Shown piece by piece: positions 26,814 through 34,224 of a stretch of 34,224 nt of DNA. The notes beneath the pieces were generated by a model that was not told the origin of the DNA, ran no database searches, and was given only the letters and a program-made list of their open reading frames with translations. Both the position numbers and the translations under genes were made by a program. Source of the stretch: an uncultured Flavobacteriaceae bacterium. Its GTDB lineage: Bacteria; Bacteroidota; Bacteroidia; Flavobacteriales; Flavobacteriaceae. The stretch lies in NCBI GenBank assembly GCA_905480425.1, contig CAJQQG010000001.1, forward strand, positions 1 through 34,224. Direction: 5' to 3'. How positions within the stretch are numbered: the stretch's first letter is position 1; every line of letters begins with the position of its first letter.

Positions 26814-27293
26814 ATGAAAAAAATCATTACTGTTTTCTTATTCTTATTTTTATTTAGCTGTGGCTCAAAAGATGAAAAGAAAAAAGGATTCGAATATAAT
26901 CGTACTCAAAAGATTGATAAAAAATCTAATGATAGAAATGTGAGTAAAACTCCTGTAGATTTAAACAATAAAGGTATTGGTCCCATAAAAAAAGTTGATT
27001 TTGAAACTACTATAAATAATGATTTAGCTGAAAAAGGAAAAGCGACCTTTAATCAGAAATGTACTGCCTGTCATATGGCAAACAGAAAATTGATTGGCCC
27101 AGCAATGAAGGGAATTTATGAGCGTCGTAGTCCAGAGTGGGTGATGAATATGTTGTTAAATCCTGCAGAAATGTTAAAAAAAGATCCTGTAGCAATTGCT
27201 TTGCTTAAAGAATATAATAACATAATGATGCTAAATCAAAACTTGACTAACGAGGAAGCACGCAGTATTACTGAATACTTGAGGACTTTGTAA
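26814..27293 (+). CDS. Lipoprotein c-type cytochrome
   Basis: Protein of 159 residues. Lipoprotein signal MKKIITVFLFLFLFSC with Cys16 as the lipid anchor; a lysine-rich linker of about 50 residues; then a single class I cytochrome c domain with haem motif CTACH (Cys83, Cys86, His87) and a likely Met ligand at 138 or 139 in NIMMLNQNLT. LIGPAMKGIYERRSPEWVMNMLLNP is the usual surrounding sequence in Bacteroidota cytochromes. It should sit on a membrane facing the periplasm and carry electrons. The last 22 codons and about 60 bases downstream recur as a decayed copy at 31582-31713. Confidence 0.93.
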   Translation: MKKIITVFLFLFLFSCGSKDEKKKGFEYNRTQKIDKKSNDRNVSKTPVDLNNKGIGPIKKVDFETTINNDLAEKGKATFNQKCTACHMANRKLIGPAMKGIYERRSPEWVMNMLLNPAEMLKKDPVAIALLKEYNNIMMLNQNLTNEEARSITEYLRTL

Positions 27294-27361
27294 TTCTTTT
27301 GAGTATCCATTTGCATATTCATTTGCATATTTATCAATAGTACCTCCTTTTCATCTGTAAA

Positions 27362-27378
27362 GTGTAAAAGGTTTACAC
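27362..27378 (+). repeat. Palindromic repeat, copy 1
   Basis: GTGTAAA-AGG-TTTACAC, a perfect 7+3+7 palindrome, preceded by a further TGTAAA (27356-27361) and followed by CCCC. It lies 68 bases after the cytochrome c stop and 18 bases before the small membrane protein at 27397. All four copies have the same orientation, with the purine-rich spacer on the plus strand. Confidence 0.8.
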
Positions 27379-27396
27379 CCCCTTAAATCAACTAAA

Positions 27397-27579
27397 ATGA
27401 AATCAAAATTTGCTCAAATGGTTTTTCGGATATTGGGTTATATTGCAAAATCAGGTTGGATTGTTGTAATTATATTTGAACTTATAGATGGAAAATATTT
27501 TTCTGCAATAGGATGGTTTTGTTTCGGTTTAATATTTTTTTTCCCACAATGGCTTTATAAGAATTTCTTTGGTGGATAG
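27397..27579 (+). CDS. Small membrane protein (60 aa) between palindromes 1 and 2
   Basis: Short reading frame MKSKFAQMVFRIL... with two hydrophobic stretches (about 9-28 and 34-55, the latter with several Phe, Trp and Tyr) separated by the polar turn ELIDGKYFS. A Lys/Arg-bearing N terminus is present. It fills the space between two palindromes almost exactly, 18 bases after the first and 9 before the second. Composition and the membrane pattern argue for a real gene, but no family is recognised. It could be a small stress or toxin-like membrane peptide; that is a guess. Confidence 0.55.
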   Translation: MKSKFAQMVFRILGYIAKSGWIVVIIFELIDGKYFSAIGWFCFGLIFFFPQWLYKNFFGG

Positions 27580-27898
27580 TATTTGTAAGTGTAAAGGGTT
27601 TACAGGGGTGTTTTCTATTTCTTCAATCATTTAAAAACTATGAAGCAATAAAAAATGAAAATGAAAATAACAGCAAATAAAATTATAGGTCTTGAAAAAA
27701 ATTCTTTCATAATACAAAAATAACGTTTTCTATTTATTGACGTTTTCTTTTAAACCACAGGCATATCATCTTCTGTAAGTTCTAGAATACACTTTACCAA
27801 GAATGAAACAAGCTACTAATGAAGTAAGTGAATACTTGCATTTGTTTGTTAAGTAAGTTCTGGGATTTGTGATTTTTTAAGTGTAAAGTGTAAAGGGT
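27580..27898. other. Gap with palindrome 2 and no clear gene
   Basis: This stretch holds palindrome copy 2 at its start, the first part of copy 3 at its end and about 280 bases between. The only frames are under 25 codons (for example ATG at 27662). A short direct repeat ACGTTTTCT occurs twice near 27723-27751. It may be the remains of a small gene unit. I see no further feature. Confidence 0.5.
27589..27605 (+). repeat. Palindromic repeat, copy 2
   Basis: GTGTAAA-GGG-TTTACAG: inner six pairs TGTAAA/TTTACA are perfect, and the outer pair is lost by one change. It begins nine bases after the stop of the 60-aa membrane protein. Confidence 0.75.
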
Positions 27899-27904
27899 TT
27901 ACAC
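27888..27904 (+). repeat. Palindromic repeat, copy 3
   Basis: GTGTAAA-GGG-TTTACAC, perfect 7+3+7, with an additional GTGTAAA directly before it (27881-27887). The GTG TAA that ends the MGR-family gene on the minus strand (27899-27904) is inside the palindrome, so repeat and gene end share sequence. Confidence 0.8.
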
Positions 27905-28186
27905 CCCTTCTGGAAGTTCTCTGCTTTCAACATCAAAACCTTCACCTGACTCCTTTTTAGTACAAACATCCAAAAAGACTGGTTGCTCCCAAGCGCCTTC
28001 CGTTTCTCCTGAAACGTGCTTTAGTTTTGGTAATAGATATTGCAATCCTATCTGCAGCATCTTCAGTTTCTGGTCGGTTGTCATCTCACTAATATCTAAT
28101 TGAGATACTACGTCATCCATTACTGTCTGTAGTTTGTTTTTTACTTCTGTGGTAAGTTTATTTGGCTGTCCTGCTATTCTGCCCAT
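27899..28186 (-). CDS. Small MGR-family protein (95 aa), intact copy
   Basis: Protein of unknown function with three visible parts. A basic N terminus MGRIAGQPNKLTTEVKN resembles the GRxxGxxNK openings seen in some phage and mobile-element proteins. A helical core VMDDVVSQLDISEMTTDQKLKMLQIGLQYLLPKLKH follows. An acidic tail contains AWEQPVFLDV and ends ELPEGV. Two related broken copies occur nearby (28646-28705 and 31768-32016), so it belongs to a locally repeated family; the core is best conserved, the tail less. The stop lies in palindrome 3. It starts 19 bases from the divergent small membrane protein. DNA or nucleic-acid binding is a guess from the basic start. Confidence 0.7.
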   Translation of the reverse strand: MGRIAGQPNKLTTEVKNKLQTVMDDVVSQLDISEMTTDQKLKMLQIGLQYLLPKLKHVSGETEGAWEQPVFLDVCTKKESGEGFDVESRELPEGV

Positions 28187-28205
28187 ATTTTATTATTTTA
28201 GTTAT

Positions 28206-28391
28206 ATGAAAGACTTTCTTAAAAAATATCCTGAAATTTTATTAACTGGGGGCATTCTTTTATCTATTGCAGGTCATTACTATCCTGATGAAACAGCTAC
28301 TAATAACTTTATTGCAGCAGGTATTTATATAGTCTCTGCTGTACTTTTTGTACTTGCAGCAATTGGCTTTCTTATGAAAAACAAGAAATAA
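28206..28391 (+). CDS. Small membrane protein (61 aa)
   Basis: Start at ATG 28206 gives MKDFLKKYPEILLTGG..., with two hydrophobic helices (about 10-24 and 36-56) joined by the polar turn HYYPDETATNN and a basic KNKK end. The frame extends upstream to 28134, but that would run antisense into the MGR-family gene, so the inner ATG is preferred. It is divergent from that gene with only 19 bases between. No family is recognised. Like the 60-aa protein at 27397 it is a two-helix protein inside the palindrome region. Confidence 0.6.
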   Translation: MKDFLKKYPEILLTGGILLSIAGHYYPDETATNNFIAAGIYIVSAVLFVLAAIGFLMKNKK

Positions 28392-28402
28392 AAACCTGTA
28401 CT

Positions 28403-28513
28403 TTATTTTTTAGAGAAAGTCATTATCCTTGACTTGCTTTCAAATCTACTTGTCTGATTGTTTAGTTTTTGATAAACAACCCTTACAGTTACTGTGCTTC
28501 TATTGTTGGTCAT
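28403..28513 (-). CDS. Possible 36-aa peptide
   Basis: Reads MTNNRSTVTVRVVYQKLNN... and ends FSKK. The sequence is balanced and slightly basic rather than low-complexity, with alternating Val/Thr strands, but at this length chance cannot be excluded. It lies downstream of the hydrophobic fragment on the same strand. Confidence 0.25.
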   Translation of the reverse strand: MTNNRSTVTVRVVYQKLNNQTSRFESKSRIMTFSKK

Positions 28514-28634
28514 ATAATTGATTATTTAAACGTTTCTATTATTAGGTATACTATCCATACGAGTATTAAAACGATGAAGTAAATCTCAAACGCTTTCGTC
28601 TAAATATTCATCAAGATTAAAAGCTGTCTGTAAA

Positions 28635-28651
28635 ATTTAAAAGGTTTACAC
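28635..28651 (+). repeat. Palindromic repeat, copy 4 (left arm degenerate)
   Basis: ATTTAAA-AGG-TTTACAC: the right arm and spacer match copy 1 exactly, the left arm differs at two positions, and the preceding TGTAAA (28629-28634) is kept. As in copy 3, the stop codon of an MGR-family reading frame (GTG TAA) is within the right arm. Confidence 0.7.
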
Positions 28652-28705
28652 CTTTTTTGGAAGTGGTTTCCTTTCAGTCTCCCAACCGCCATTTTCTTCG
28701 CCCAT
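28646..28705 (-). pseudogene. MGR-family remnant with internal deletion
   Basis: Nineteen codons: MGEENGGWETERKPLPKKV. The first two codons and the upstream bases match the start of the intact gene at 28186. From Glu4 on it matches the C-terminal tail, best seen against the other remnant (KENGGWNSDIRP) and the intact tail ELPEGV. It looks like the family gene with about 75 internal codons deleted. Too short for a folded protein. Confidence 0.6.
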
Positions 28706-28750
28706 ATTATCTTAACAGAAATAGATATAACATCCTTTTTTACTAAAGGA

Positions 28751-30994
28751 TTAATTTAACTTCCAACGTAAACCAAAGAAAAATCGAATACCTTGGTTTG
28801 ATGCATAAACATAAGAAGGATCAAAAGTTAATGCAAAAGGATTATTTTTTGTAGACATTGCATTTCCTTCTGTATCAAAAGTAACTTCATTATCAAAAGG
28901 GTCAAATGATCTCGCAATACTATCTCTAGGTGGTGTAAAATCTAGTAGGTTTTTAACACCACCATAGGATTCAAAAGTGTTATTCCAAGATTTTGTTAGC
29001 TGAAAATTTAAAATATGAAAAGTTTTTGAATAAGAAGATCTAGGATCAAGTATTCCGAGGGTTGGTAACTTTAAGGGCCCTGTAGCTGTCCCTGTTATAT
29101 CTAACACAAGATTTGAGGTTATCCATTTTTTCTCGATTTTCCAAACCCCTTGAAACCTTTCGGTCAAGTAAGGAGTTGTTCTAAGCTTTTGCTTATTTAT
29201 ATAAGAATCAATATATGTTGCTCCTAAATTAACTCTAAAACCATTTTGAATCAAAAGGTTAAAATTCAGTGAAGCTCCTTGATGTATTGAATTCCCATTG
29301 AGATTAGCATAGATAATTTTATTAGGATCGGTATCGTAGTCTGGAATAATTTTATTTGAAAATTGGGTATGAAAAATACTGAAATCAAAATCTACTATTG
29401 CTCCTTGTTTTAAGTATAACTTTTTAAGAAAATTACCATTTATATTCCAAGATCTTTCCGGATCTATATCTTCTAAGAAAACCACATCACGAGCTCCAGT
29501 TAAAGCTGCATGATCTTCCGTAAAAACTTGTGCTACGCGATAGCCAGATCCAATACTAAATCGAACGGTTGTACTTTTAGCCTTATTACTTATTTTATAA
29601 TTAACTCTAGGTGTCAAAATATTTCCATGAAGGGAATTATAATCATAACGAAGACCAAGTAATAGAGTGTTTTTTGAATTGAATATTATCTCATCTTGAA
29701 TAAATATTCCTGGTAAATGTGTAATTTTCTCCTGATTTAGTTTTGACAATTCATTAAATGTGGCTGTGGTATCATCATCATAGATTGTATAGCGATATGC
29801 CATTCCAAGTAAAATGTCGTGACGTTTTATGTTTTTATTCCAAACGAATTGTCCAAAACCAATTGTTTGGTTTGCATTGAAAGAAGTTGATCCATAAACA
29901 GAATTTTGATTATGGTCATTTAAACTGAAACTAAATGAAAACTCCGAATTTAATTCATACTTACCAAAAATTTCAAATCGTGCAGTAAAAATACTTTCTC
30001 CATAAATACTTTCTCCTCCGCGATATTCAGGCGACCAATTCATTTGGCCACCCCACCTGTCTTCATAGACAAATCGGGTTGCAATTGATAATTTTTTTCC
30101 AAAAGTTAGCTTGTTAAAAATAGAAATACGGTCCTGTAGTGTTAAATCTGTGAAACCGTCTTGATTATTATCTATTGGGTTTGAATAATTAAAATAATTT
30201 ATACCTATCAAACCTGAATTTTTATCAGATAAACGATACTTAAATCCAATATCTGTATTAATTTCTCCCCAGCCTGATAAAAAAGAATCTACGGCTAGTT
30301 TGGATGTATTTTCAGGTAACCTAGTAATTAAATTGATCACACCCCCAATGGCCTCTGAACCGTAAAGTGTTGAGGCAGGACCTTTAATCACTTCAACGCG
30401 TTCAATCAGAGATTGTGGTATCCCAGATAAACCATAGACGGTTGACAATCCGCTAACTATTGGTAAGCCATCTATAAGTATCATTGTATAGCTTCCCTCT
30501 TGACCATTGATATGAATATCCCCTGTATTACATACATTACAATTCAACTGTGGTCTGATACCATTAATATTTTCTAAGGCCTCAAAAATTGAAGCTGTTG
30601 GGTTAGCTTTAAAAAAAGTTTGACTGTACACTTCAACTGGCACAGGACTATCCAACTTAGAGACCGGTTTTAAAGTCCCTGAAATTACAACCTCATCTAA
30701 GGTTTCATCAGATTCTAAAACTATAATTCCAAGATTTAAATCTCCAACATCTATTTTCCGTATAACTGGTTTATAACCGATATACGAAAATATTAATTTT
30801 TGATTTTTTAAATTAGCAATGTTTAATTTAAATTGTCCCTCAAAATCGGTTATTGTTCCAATATTTGAACTTTTTAAAAGTATAGAAACACCCTCCAGGG
30901 GTTGCCCATTAAAAAAAACCTTTCCCTTAACAGAAAGTTCCTGTGCTGAGGCTATTTGAATTATAAAAAAGAGGAAAACCAAACGAATTGTCAT
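28751..30994 (-). CDS. TonB-dependent outer-membrane receptor (probable metal uptake)
   Basis: Protein of 747 residues: signal peptide 1-18, a carboxypeptidase-regulatory-like beta domain (about 19-100), plug domain (about 110-230) with LIDGLPIV, VEVIKGPASTLYGSEAIGGVINLIT, and a 22-strand barrel to the C terminus. The plug has a CNVC cysteine pair (Cys152, Cys155) followed by TGDIHINGQEG, a feature of one receptor subgroup in Bacteroidota. It takes up an unknown ligand using TonB energy. It is divergent from a DtxR/MntR-type regulator, and its promoter is overlaid by two operator-like repeats, so the cargo is most likely a metal, manganese or iron. The cargo is inferred from the regulator, not seen. 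Confidence 0.92.
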   Translation of the reverse strand: MTIRLVFLFFIIQIASAQELSVKGKVFFNGQPLEGVSILLKSSNIGTITDFEGQFKLNIANLKNQKLIFSYIGYKPVIRKIDVGDLNLGIIVLESDETLDEVVISGTLKPVSKLDSPVPVEVYSQTFFKANPTASIFEALENINGIRPQLNCNVCNTGDIHINGQEGSYTMILIDGLPIVSGLSTVYGLSGIPQSLIERVEVIKGPASTLYGSEAIGGVINLITRLPENTSKLAVDSFLSGWGEINTDIGFKYRLSDKNSGLIGINYFNYSNPIDNNQDGFTDLTLQDRISIFNKLTFGKKLSIATRFVYEDRWGGQMNWSPEYRGGESIYGESIFTARFEIFGKYELNSEFSFSFSLNDHNQNSVYGSTSFNANQTIGFGQFVWNKNIKRHDILLGMAYRYTIYDDDTTATFNELSKLNQEKITHLPGIFIQDEIIFNSKNTLLLGLRYDYNSLHGNILTPRVNYKISNKAKSTTVRFSIGSGYRVAQVFTEDHAALTGARDVVFLEDIDPERSWNINGNFLKKLYLKQGAIVDFDFSIFHTQFSNKIIPDYDTDPNKIIYANLNGNSIHQGASLNFNLLIQNGFRVNLGATYIDSYINKQKLRTTPYLTERFQGVWKIEKKWITSNLVLDITGTATGPLKLPTLGILDPRSSYSKTFHILNFQLTKSWNNTFESYGGVKNLLDFTPPRDSIARSFDPFDNEVTFDTEGNAMSTKNNPFALTFDPSYVYASNQGIRFFFGLRWKLN

Positions 30995-31003
30995 ATTTGA
31001 TTA

Positions 31004-31078
31004 TATTAATTAGTTTTATACTACAAAACATTATTAGTTTACAAATGTATTAATTAGTTTTATACTGCAAAACATTAT
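31004..31078. promoter_or_regulatory. Tandem operator over the receptor promoter
   Basis: A 31-base sequence occurs twice (31004-31034 and 31048-31078) with one difference. Each holds a 17-base imperfect palindrome GTTTTATACTrCAAAAC (31013-31029 and 31057-31073); centres are 44 bases apart, about four helical turns. On the minus strand a TTG at 31070-31068 and TACATTTG at 31049-31042, with 18 bases between, form a near-ideal promoter for the receptor. One operator covers the TTG and the other lies just after the expected transcription start. This is the layout of a repressor site, most likely for the adjacent DtxR/MntR-type protein. Confidence 0.75.
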
Positions 31079-31080
31079 AT

Positions 31081-31491
31081 ATGAAAAATACTATTGAAAA
31101 AGAAAATTATCTAAAGGTTGTTTATAAGATGGAAGAAAAATCTCAAAAAATTAGTGTCACATCTCTTTCAAAAAATTTTAATGTTAGTATGTCTACAGTA
31201 TCTAATATGATCAAAAAATTGGTTGTCATGAATTTGGTAGACAGTAAACCCTATAAACCAATTATTTTGACAAAACAAGGAAGGCAGAGTGCTTTAGAAA
31301 TAATTGCAAAGCACCGTTTAATCGAACTCTATTTAGTAGAAAAAATGCAATTTAGTTTAGATGAGGTACACGAAATTGCTGAAGAAATTGAACACATAAA
31401 AAATACAAAGTTTTTTAATCGAATGAAGGAAATTTTAGGAAATGCCCAGCTAGATCCACACGGGTCGATTATCCCAAAGTGTGACTTTTAG
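31081..31491 (+). CDS. DtxR/MntR-family metal-dependent repressor (short form)
   Basis: Regulator of 136 residues with the winged-helix domain first (about 7-68, ISVTSLSKNFNVSMSTVSNMIKKL) and a dimerisation/metal domain after it. It ends at about the point where B. subtilis MntR ends, and lacks the SH3-like third domain of DtxR. Aligned metal ligands are His78, Glu82, His97, Glu101, Glu104 and His105. Glu101 stands where DtxR has Cys102, the arrangement seen in manganese-sensing MntR; the residue equal to MntR Asp8 is Asn9. It ends DPHGSIIPKCDF. It probably represses the divergent receptor when metal is ample. The start codon lies three bases from the second operator repeat, suggesting self-control. 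Confidence 0.88.
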   Translation: MKNTIEKENYLKVVYKMEEKSQKISVTSLSKNFNVSMSTVSNMIKKLVVMNLVDSKPYKPIILTKQGRQSALEIIAKHRLIELYLVEKMQFSLDEVHEIAEEIEHIKNTKFFNRMKEILGNAQLDPHGSIIPKCDF

Positions 31492-31581
31492 TTTGTTAAA
31501 AAATTCAAGAGAATATCTATAAATAGTGATGTGTGAGAGAACAAAAGTTTATGTAAATGCAAGGTTATTTAGGGTGTTCTG

Positions 31582-31713
31582 ATACTTAATCAAAACTTGG
31601 CTAACGAGGAAGCACAGAGTATCACTGAGTATTTAAGGGCTTTATAATTTTTTTGAGTATGTATTTTGCATATTCATTTTTCATATTTGTCAAGAATACC
31701 GTCTATTTTCACC
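31582..31713 (+). pseudogene. Decayed cytochrome c tail and downstream copy
   Basis: Bases 31582-31647 read ILNQNLANEEAQSITEYLRAL then TAA, matching the last 22 residues of the cytochrome c at 26814-27293 at about 19 positions. Most base differences are silent, so the copy evolved under selection before it was cut off. Similarity goes on past the stop (GAGTAT, GCATATTCAT, CATATTT) to about 31713. The haem-binding part is absent. Confidence 0.75.
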
Positions 31714-31740: not shown

Positions 31741-31764
31741 TGTAAAGCATAAAATGTATACGAC
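31741..31764 (+). repeat. Degenerate palindrome of the decayed block
   Basis: TGTAAAGCATAAAATGTATACGAC matches the 24 bases of copy 1 (27356-27379 region) at about 18 positions but has lost dyad symmetry. It sits four bases before the stop of the broken MGR-family gene, the same relation as at copies 3 and 4. Confidence 0.5.
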
Positions 31765-31767
31765 TTG

Positions 31768-32016
31768 TTAATGGTCTTTAATTGGAAAAGTTCCAAATGG
31801 TCTAATATCAGAGTTCCATCCTCCATTTTCTTTATCTCTGGTTACGATGTCAATAAACAATGGTCAGTCTAAAACCTCTTTTTCATTTGACTCGTGCTTC
31901 AGTATTTGGAACTGGTATTGCAGTCCCATTTGGAGCATCTTTATTTTTTGGTCTGCGCTTATAGAATCAATGTCAAGCTGAAATACTACATCGTCCATAT
32001 CTAGTAAATTATGCAT
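31768..32016 (-). pseudogene. MGR-family gene, broken copy
   Basis: From ATG at 32016 the frame reads MHNLLDMDDVVFQLDIDSI..., then SADQKIKMLQMGLQYQFQILKH, clearly the same core as the intact 95-aa protein. A TGA at 31864-31866 interrupts it, after which PLFIDIVTRDKENGGW continues in frame to a stop at 31768. The basic N terminus (about 15 residues) is missing. Identity to the intact copy is roughly half, so this is an old duplicate. The frame surviving after the stop suggests the mutation is fairly recent. Confidence 0.7.
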
Positions 32017-32134: not shown

Positions 32135-33193
32135 TTACTTTGACGGAGATTCAATTGATTTAACTAATCTAAATCCTGTATGTTGTAAACCAGTGTCAGG
32201 AGAGGACTTCATCCTTGAAGCTACTCTATAGCCTGAACAATATGCATCATTGCAAAGAAAAGATCCTCCGCGCATAACCTTTTGCCTTAAATAGGGTTGG
32301 TAAGGATCATATGGTGCTTCAGGACCTTGAGGATTATTCCCTCTTTGACTTTCAAAAGATTCGTAATAAGTATAATCATACCAATCTGAGCACCATTCCC
32401 AAACATTACCAGCCATATCAAATAGACCGAAAGGGTTTGGTTTAAAAGAGCCTACTGGAGCAGTGTAAAAAAACTCATCCTTAAGTGTATTCTTATAAGG
32501 GAAACTCCCCTCCCATGCATTTGCTTTGGGTTCTCCAGTTGTAACTGCTTCGTCGCCCCATGGATACTTTTTATTCACTCCTCCACTTGCGGCCCATTCC
32601 CATTCTGCTTCTGTAGGTAAACGCTTTCCTGCCCAAGCGGCATAAGCTTGTGCATCATACCAAGAAATATGAACTACAGGATGGTCCATTTTATTTTCAA
32701 TCGAACTTCCCTTTCCTTTTGGATAACGCCAACTGGCTTTAGACTTCCATTGCCACCATGCACCATAATCATTGAGGTTTACAGGACCATCTGTTGCTTC
32801 AAATACTAATGAAGCTGCTTTAAGTAGTGAGTCATTTGGCTTAGGTGTATCTGGAGGAAGTTCTTTTTTCAATTCCTCCCAATTAGGTTTTTTTTCTGCA
32901 GTAGTTATATATCCAGTAGCATCAATAAATTCCTTGAATTGAAAATTGGTAACCTCGGTTTGATCCATCCAAAAAGCATTAACATGAACAGGATGAATAG
33001 GGGATTCATCGTCTCTAGCTTGTTCATCGCTGCTTCCCATTAGAAAATCACCAGAAGGAATCATTACCATACCATCTTTTATGACTTTAGGTAGATTTTT
33101 CAATTCCTTATTAGCACATTTAGCAAAAAATAAAAAGATAAATAATCCCGAAAGTAGATTAATTTGAAGATTTTTAAATATTTCTAGTTTCAT
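32135..33193 (-). CDS. Formylglycine-generating enzyme (sulfatase activator)
   Basis: Protein of 352 residues of the FGE-sulfatase family. It oxidises a cysteine of sulfatases to formylglycine, using oxygen and copper in the aerobic enzyme. A hydrophobic N terminus (about 12-25) ending AKC suggests export and perhaps lipidation at Cys26. The domain opens MVMIPSGDFLMGSSDEQARD and contains RLPTEAEWEWAA, MAGNVWEWCSDWY and MRGGSFLCNDAYCSGYR. The last holds Cys314 and Cys319, in the spacing of the two active cysteines of true FGE, which many FGE-like proteins lack. GFRLVK closes the fold. A sulfatase gene with a CTPSR site is divergent 263 bases away, fitting the role. Confidence 0.9.
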   Translation of the reverse strand: MKLEIFKNLQINLLSGLFIFLFFAKCANKELKNLPKVIKDGMVMIPSGDFLMGSSDEQARDDESPIHPVHVNAFWMDQTEVTNFQFKEFIDATGYITTAEKKPNWEELKKELPPDTPKPNDSLLKAASLVFEATDGPVNLNDYGAWWQWKSKASWRYPKGKGSSIENKMDHPVVHISWYDAQAYAAWAGKRLPTEAEWEWAASGGVNKKYPWGDEAVTTGEPKANAWEGSFPYKNTLKDEFFYTAPVGSFKPNPFGLFDMAGNVWEWCSDWYDYTYYESFESQRGNNPQGPEAPYDPYQPYLRQKVMRGGSFLCNDAYCSGYRVASRMKSSPDTGLQHTGFRLVKSIESPSK

Positions 33194-33456: not shown

Positions 33457-34224
33457 ATGATACAACTATACATAACACTATTAACAGGTTTAATTTTTAA
33501 CTCTAGTTATAGACCATATTATGAAATTAAATCAAATTTAAAACCAAATTTTATTATTGTTTTTGTAGATGATATGGGTTACGGAGATTTAGGGTCTTAT
33601 GGGCATCCAACCATCAGCACACCCAATCTAGATAAAATGGCCTACGAAGGCCAAAAGTGGACTCAGTTCTACTCTGCGTCAAGTGTTTGTACTCCAAGTA
33701 GAGCAGGATTATTAACTGGCAGACTTCCAATAAGAAATGGAATGATTGGTTCAAAAAACAGAGTTCTATTTCCAGATTCAAAATATGGACTACCCGATTC
33801 TGAGATTACTATTGCAGAAAAATTAAAAGAAAATGGATATAAAACTGTAGCAATAGGTAAATGGCATTTAGGCCATAAGAAAGAATATCTTCCTCTTCAA
33901 CATGGATTTGATTATTATTATGGCATTCCATATTCGAATGACATGGATAAAATCAATGGTGAAACATGTTGTCCTGGATCAAAATATTGGCAAAAATATC
34001 AAAATAGAAGTCCAGGATCAACTAATTATTACAATGTTCCTTTGATTGAAAATAATGAAATTATTGAAAGACCAGTAGATCAAACAACAATAACCAAAAG
34101 GTTTTCAGATAAAGCGGTTGAATTTATCAAAAAAAATAAAGAAGATAATTTCTTTATTTATCTGGCTCACAACCTACCACATATTCCCCTTTATGCTTCA
34201 GATGATTTTTTAGGAAAAAGTAAA
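33457..34224 (+). CDS. Sulfatase, partial (runs off the window)
   Basis: Open from ATG at 33457 to the end of the window, 256 codons with no stop; a whole enzyme would be about 450-550. A hydrophobic N terminus suggests export. Metal ligands are Asp38-Asp39 in VDDMGYGDLG. The formylglycine site is CTPSRAG with Cys78. GKWHLG supplies Lys135 and His137. HGFDYYYGIPYSNDM and AHNLPHIPL follow as in arylsulfatase A-like S1 enzymes, including the N-acetylgalactosamine-6-sulfatase type. It cleaves sulfate esters, probably from sulfated polysaccharide. Cys-type maturation matches the neighbouring formylglycine-generating enzyme. The substrate and the C-terminal half cannot be judged. Confidence 0.93.
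   Translation, partial: MIQLYITLLTGLIFNSSYRPYYEIKSNLKPNFIIVFVDDMGYGDLGSYGHPTISTPNLDKMAYEGQKWTQFYSASSVCTPSRAGLLTGRLPIRNGMIGSKNRVLFPDSKYGLPDSEITIAEKLKENGYKTVAIGKWHLGHKKEYLPLQHGFDYYYGIPYSNDMDKINGETCCPGSKYWQKYQNRSPGSTNYYNVPLIENNEIIERPVDQTTITKRFSDKAVEFIKKNKEDNFFIYLAHNLPHIPLYASDDFLGKSK

Follow-up and report, generated by a model that had tools for sequence, protein, structure and literature searches.

Putative integron-like cassette arrays built on an integrase-gene tail, and decayed tandem islands at a cytochrome c gene, in marine Flavobacteriaceae

Integrons are the textbook system for stockpiling and shuffling single genes. A system of comparable architecture, a repeated cassette site and the arrays of small genes that it punctuates, is described here from a 34,224-nucleotide stretch of DNA of an uncultured Flavobacteriaceae bacterium (GenBank assembly GCA_905480425.1, contig CAJQQG010000001.1, positions 1 to 34,224 of the forward strand; this whole stretch is referred to as the window) and from the genus to which it belongs. 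Similar to integrons and their orphan arrays (IntI, attI, attC), this system comprises a tyrosine recombinase, a single common site and orphan arrays. The main differences concern the integrase and the site. Four of the integrases termed type A here (the names type A, box, site and MGR were coined in this analysis) score 17.1–28.3 bits on the NCBIfam model TIGR02249 as opposed to its cut-off of 265. The integron attI lies upstream of intI, whereas the primary site of the present system is the 3′ end of the integrase gene with its stop codon. No unusual folding or hairpin of this site was seen (mean fold z of −0.4 for 60 of 171 site regions, with RNA parameters and simple shuffles). In addition, most cassette genes in the arrays behind the integrase of two genomes (G172 and G173) face the integrase, unlike those of integrons.

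Genomic islands in tRNA genes and gene 3′ ends share with the elements of this genus a regenerated target, a displaced target fragment and, in complete elements, an integrase beside the target. They differ in that the islands of the window lack an integrase, stand in tandem and are decayed, and in that the type A elements have the integrase tail as an additional site. Phage satellites, tycheposons and other small marine integrative elements, according to the accessible parts of their descriptions, are likewise small and tRNA-targeted with few other hallmark genes, and the integrase, helicase-like and DUF6371 genes of the elements described below resemble theirs. Unlike in those systems, no packaging gene was identified here, and cassette arrays are not mentioned for them in the accessible parts of the sources. 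A further group of marine elements with tyrosine recombinases, which move unlike integron cassettes or integrative and conjugative elements, was compared by description only; in the excerpts available it has two recombinase genes and no cassette array. No description of arrays such as those reported here was found in the portions of the open-access literature consulted (including PMC12324425, PMC9345347 and PMC8138268).

Two layers are likely to account for the observations: decayed integrative elements at a cytochrome c gene in the window and, genus-wide, integron-like arrays that use the tail of an integrase gene as their site.

The cassette site and its arrays

Type A is a tyrosine integrase of about 350 amino acids (aa) that ends in ...LRGLEIPELNEEDMPMI, or a close variant of it, at six loci of the genus (G173, G178, G164, G172, G183 and G177; the copy of G177 is broken and lacks the catalytic tyrosine). 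The cassette site corresponds to the last ~38 bp of the type A integrase gene, comprising the final codons and the stop codon. Conservation across 171 site copies extends from about −9 to +29 and falls at the integrase stop codon. Further same-strand copies are observed around the integrase in G172 (six), G173 (five), G178 (one) and G177 (six). In other genera, the copies found in G224 and G136, three in each and on the same strand, are like the tail of the local integrase, and those of G360 (four) and G396 (one), which are on the opposite strand, are like the integrase tail of their own genus. No tail copies were found in five shuffles per locus. A tRNA or tRNA fragment lies 15–178 nt before the start in 13 of the 16 integrase open reading frames (ORFs) that are at least 318 aa long and have testable upstream DNA. 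At E ≤ 1e-25 type A is found in 18 of 397 genomes of the family (14 of 237 genera) and a sample of the phylum contains it in 2 of 395 genomes at E ≤ 1e-40; in viral contigs nine stretches fit a pattern and none was confirmed as type A.

As a 24-base pattern, the site has 255 matches in 32 of the 38 genus genomes (summed table) and none in the reversed control; the genome of the window contributes 32 matches at ≤3 mismatches. Array statistics were taken from 49 loci (664,554 bases), mostly picked for holding sites or MGR, whose site density is not a genome average. These loci contain 196 site copies, compared with 2 in one shuffle. Neighbouring sites less than 4 kb apart are on the same strand in 128 of 143 pairs and on opposite strands in 15, forming same-orientation rows of mostly single-gene cassettes as in integrons. 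The 128 cassettes, from 17 genomes, have a median spacing of 907 bp, and the longest ORF runs in the expected direction in 89 of them. In these 89 the ATG is located 49–50 nt from the site in 23 and 40–80 nt from it in 48, a range in which none of the 22 cassettes with an opposite longest ORF falls. Nine same-strand sites follow one another across 6.7 kb in G174:C1, and nine copies are found within 19 kb in G180:C6. Eight of the ten proteins of the G174:C1 array region are without a Pfam match at 1e-3, and the other two match domains of unknown function.

In a subset of arrays, with examples at L264 (G000:C21), at L081 (G180:C7) and at 27751–27853 of the window, the site is joined to a 3′ fragment of MGR, a gene described below, in place of the usual leader, and the junction is at the same MGR position. 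Cassette sites are also present on several short contigs (3.1–3.7 kb) of the window's genome (G000), namely C21, C27, C34 and C52. Arrays thus probably interrupt this assembly, and cassette numbers are probably underestimated.

The relation between array and integrase could also be read the other way round, with type A as a landing pad only and non-autonomous elements, mobilized in trans by a different recombinase, that use the integrase 3′ end as an ordinary target. It is common for gene 3′ ends to harbour islands, as at cytochrome c in the window, and the window's genome contains arrays while no type A integrase was found in its assembly, which is 85% complete. The array copies of G224 and G136, on the other hand, follow the local integrase and resemble its tail rather than that of the window's genus, and this explanation is considered unlikely, although it deserves more weight than the two alternatives discussed below.

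Exchange between species

Seven pairs of cassettes from different species are alike over nearly their whole length, with 82–98% identity; for example, G176:C6 and G154:C44 match over the full 1028 bp, and G176:C10 and G177:C1 over the full 530 bp. The neighbouring cassettes differ in all four pairs that have data on both sides; the other three pairs are without such data. When flanks are included, six of the seven pairs have alignments that end ≤60 nt from the sites on both sides, and in the seventh the main alignment stops 123 nt short. Exchange that ends at the site is a further property shared with integrons. Different cassettes occupy one locus in the two closest species, as seen in the C26 array of the window's genome and the C6 array of its closest relative, G180: the common chromosomal flank is 93% identical, and the arrays themselves have only two cassette-level matches, both starting at a site. 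These comparisons indicate that cassettes have moved between species with their ends at the site.

Alternatively, the repeat could serve a gene family or regulon as its promoter or leader element, rather than serve recombination, and have spread by gene duplication. Its position directly upstream of gene leaders, often at the 49–50 nt from the ATG described above, speaks for such an element. This alternative is very unlikely, because the site is the C-terminal coding end of an integrase with its stop codon and because homology between cassettes of different species ends at or near it in all but one of the pairs. In addition, the 89 cassette proteins span 60 families, 44 of which are singletons, and a promoter consensus near the sites is only weakly enriched (119 versus 87 of 171 in shuffles).

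Tandem islands and palindromes in the window

In the window, the cassette site is represented by one worn copy, in a region otherwise occupied by a second kind of repeat and by island cargo. The features of this region are as follows.

26814–27293, + strand: cytochrome c gene (Pfam Cytochrom_C); its 3′ end (about 27222–27293) is the island target and left junction
27310–27330, + strand: direct repeat TTTGCATAT with a 12-bp period, from the sequence; possible integrase arm sites
27355–27378, + strand: box 1 (palindrome at 27362), by pattern match
27397–27579, + strand: ORF of a 60-aa membrane-protein-like product, cargo (ORF list); without match in Pfam, PHROG or NCBIfam
27582–27605, + strand: box 2, degenerate (palindrome at 27589), by pattern match
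27751–27779, − strand: worn cassette site (integrase 3′-end repeat) with one mismatch, by sequence match
27782–27853, + strand: 3′ fragment of an MGR gene (tblastn, translation), in opposite orientation
27881–27904, + strand: box 3 (palindrome at 27888), by pattern match
27899–28186, − strand: intact MGR gene, 95 aa, with relatives in 22 of 38 genus genomes
28206–28391, + strand: ORF of a 61-aa membrane-protein-like product, divergent from MGR (ORF list); weak sub-threshold matches only
28628–28651, + strand: box 4 (palindrome at 28635); a 3′ remnant of MGR adjoins it and extends to about 28705
28751–30994, − strand: TonB-dependent receptor, cargo of island 1 (Pfam)
31081–31491, + strand: DtxR-type metal-dependent regulator, cargo of island 1 (Pfam)
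31576–31644, + strand: displaced copy of the cytochrome c 3′ end at the junction of islands 1 and 2 (tblastn, blastn)
31801–32001, − strand: decayed MGR gene of island 2, closely preceded by a worn box (about 31741–31765)
32135–33193, − strand: sulfatase-modifying enzyme, cargo of island 2 (Pfam FGE-sulfatase)
33457–34224, + strand: sulfatase, running off the contig end, cargo of island 2 (Pfam Sulfatase)

A regenerated target accompanied by one or more displaced fragments is the hallmark of site-specific islands. The cytochrome c site was compared in 19 of the 20 relatives with a long match (G168 was left out). In 13 of the 19 the site is empty, with the last codon of cytochrome c abutting a convergent gluconate-2-dehydrogenase subunit 3 gene (identified with Pfam). 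Between these two genes, 0.5–1.5 kb is present in G180, G167, G170 and G156; in G155 more than 4 kb of other genes follow cytochrome c before the contig ends, and the site of G171 is too divergent for judgement. In G000 the two genes are on separate contigs. On contig C79 of this genome, the neighbour gene is directly adjoined by a displaced copy of the final 24 cytochrome c codons, and a second displaced copy, of 23 codons, is located at 31576–31644 of the window. In G180, too, a displaced copy of the cytochrome c end abuts its neighbour gene. Because the target is regenerated and cytochrome c fragments are displaced, and with the site empty in relatives, the window is read as carrying two tandem, decayed islands at the cytochrome c 3′ end. 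Island 2 would continue onto contig C79, which would hold its far end; a gene at the end of C79 resembles a sulfatase by eye. The 12-bp-period repeat TTTGCATAT is observed after the cytochrome c stop codon at the occupied sites of G000, G180, G156 and G155, and the 13 empty sites leave no space for it; it may constitute integrase arm sites. No integrase is present inside the islands of the window, and in the 85% complete assembly of its genome only two integrases exceed the Pfam cut-off, each with the length of a Xer protein. Island 1's pair of TonB-receptor and DtxR genes (28751–31491) recurs, about 70% identical, at another locus in the closest relative, G180:C6:233101–235968 (L095), which also adjoins an MGR fragment.

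The palindromes GTGTAAA-N3-TTTACAC were the subject of an earlier, sequence-only reading of this DNA. They are indeed found at 27362 (no mismatches), 27589 (one), 27888 (none) and 28635 (two) in a single orientation; shuffles contain a mean of 0.28, and none of 100 reaches four. The full unit is a 24-bp box composed of three 7-bp half-sites: two in direct orientation and then, behind a 3-bp gap, an inverted one. As a degenerate pattern, this box is exact at 27355 and 27881 and has two mismatches at 28628 and four at 27582. At ≤1 mismatch the bare palindrome occurs at four places in the window's genome, three of them in the window, versus two for the reversed pattern, without clear genome-wide enrichment. 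With ≤2 mismatches, the 24-mer is found in 2 of 149 family genomes, both of the same genus as the window, and the 18-bp core has 12 matches in the genus, five of which are in apparently conserved protein-coding sequence and were counted as chance. The 60-, 95- and 61-aa ORFs noticed in that reading are present as well (the 61-aa frame measures 85 aa from an earlier TTG), and the stop codon of MGR is inside the palindrome as it had described. The unit to which it assigned no clear gene (27606–27880) turns out to hold the 3′ fragment of a second MGR gene and a copy of a different repeat, the cassette site (27751–27779, − strand), which is joined to that fragment between the second and third palindromes.

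Four like-oriented copies alternating with small genes had suggested that tiny cassettes recombine or insert at the palindromes, and the window is about 1.25 kb longer than G180 between box positions, which also speaks for it. This is the least probable of the explanations considered. What separates empty from occupied sites lies at the 3′ end of cytochrome c, where DNA is present or absent in relatives, and not at the box. A spacer beside the box, kept in the right copy and in G180, is absent at the left junction. Moreover, the box recurs inside elements and adjoins varied targets. What survives of the proposed new kind of cassette array is that arrays and exchange exist in the genus; their delimiter is another repeat. 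Accordingly, units gained or lost precisely at a delimiter, the comparison that the sequence-only reading had called for, are found at the integrase-tail site and not at the palindromes. Its alternative of 3′ scars of a repeated gene proved right for the MGR remnants.

Instead, the box and MGR are observed at the ends of integrative elements. The degenerate box has 30 matches in 16 of the 38 genus genomes, versus one for the reversed control, several of the poorer ones probably being chance; 15 of the 30 have a tRNA at a distance of 129–206 bp, with its 5′ end directed towards the box, nine have MGR just inside, and three are in the window. The targets beside it include cytochrome c and tRNA-Arg, -Asn, -Met and -Ala. 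Complete elements were found as well. In G175:C20, copies of a 46-bp tRNA-Asn repeat are 6.5 kb apart. MGR is located close to one of them and an integrase lies nearer the other, with excisionase-like, helicase-like and DUF6371 genes in between. In G184:C2, copies of a 51-bp tRNA-Arg repeat are 9.7 kb apart, and the left-end word TGTAAACTGTAAGAGGTTTACA reappears, exactly reverse-complemented, behind the stop codon of the integrase. This recurrence fits the assignment of the box as, most likely, a binding site of an element-encoded DNA-binding protein such as an excisionase or regulator. The cytochrome c site of G180 contains a single box followed by an MGR remnant, corresponding to the fourth box of the window, and the extra boxes of the window are thus probably the ends of further decayed elements. 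MGR is without a match in Pfam, PHROG and NCBIfam and has no phage record; its single-sequence structure model is poor, with a mean predicted local distance difference test score (pLDDT) of 53.2.

Two other roles of the box were considered. As a terminator it would form weak hairpins of −2.5 to −6.7 kcal/mol, and 15, 18, 69 and 30 of 200 shuffles fold equally well. As an integrase arm site it is disfavoured, since other direct repeats stand between the box and the target and vary by target, the box remaining alike, as judged by eye.

Boxes and MGR relatives are also seen elsewhere. Four related viral contigs (L076, L077, L079 and L080, of six matched) carry the box TGTAAAGTGTAAANNGTTTACAC exactly at the end of one common gene, which by eye resembles a phage terminase large subunit. 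The viral contigs L151 and L152 are circularly permuted and otherwise identical, with terminal repeats of 127 and 115 bp that imply a 7.2-kb circle. An MGR relative and a ribbon-helix-helix gene are present on this circle, and by eye it also has two genes that resemble serine recombinases and one for a repetitive surface protein. The collection holding these two circular MGR elements may include plasmids. The G184 element is followed, past its right-hand tRNA-Arg repeat, by a further box whose flank is the same and which marks a second tandem element end (L082, 16124–16340), and at contig ends of two species (L005, G137:C28; L025, G161:C23) two boxes are found 38 bp apart upstream of tRNA-Arg.

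Proposed mechanism and meaning

In the first layer, small elements of the tyrosine-integrase type would have entered the cytochrome c 3′ end repeatedly and then decayed. Two tandem cargo islands and several worn ends would be what is left of them, an end having the order direct repeats, palindromic box, MGR. In the second, a type A integrase would reside beside a tRNA or tRNA fragment, and the last ~38 bp of its own gene would serve as the cassette site. The type A integrase, which presumably catalyses cassette exchange, would recombine the site of a circular cassette with the integrase tail, so that the incoming site renews the last codons. Site copies, each with a leader and usually one gene, would build up into arrays behind the integrase or into orphan arrays, the latter staying where the integrase has been lost, as may be the case in the window's genome.

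Several points weigh against this two-layer account. Type A was not found at E ≤ 1e-25 in the 85% complete assembly of the window's own genome, and no further tail copy is present at 14 of the 23 type A loci, although four of these 14 have less than 130 nt downstream and in five the queried ORF end is not the site. The longest ORF is opposite in 22 of the 128 cassettes, and 17 have no ORF of 40 aa. Recombination is deduced here from the comparison of sequences, and a half-site linkage analysis did not locate the crossover position. Finally, the partner protein of the box is a putative one.

The arrays more probably than not, though less surely than the two layers themselves, represent a second, independently built cassette platform in marine Flavobacteriaceae, in which a tRNA-borne tyrosine integrase captures cassettes on its own tail, with its reading frame restored, and fills small genomes with cassettes mostly of unknown function. 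Any genome can be screened with the rule that site and integrase tail are one and the same. In the layer seen in the window, metal- or nutrient-uptake and sulfatase genes would accumulate as tandem islands at a housekeeping gene. If the reading of the arrays is true, the existence of another platform, whose attachment site is unrelated, would point to more than one origin of this mode of evolution, and it would provide a handle on many unknown genes of small-genome marine bacteria.
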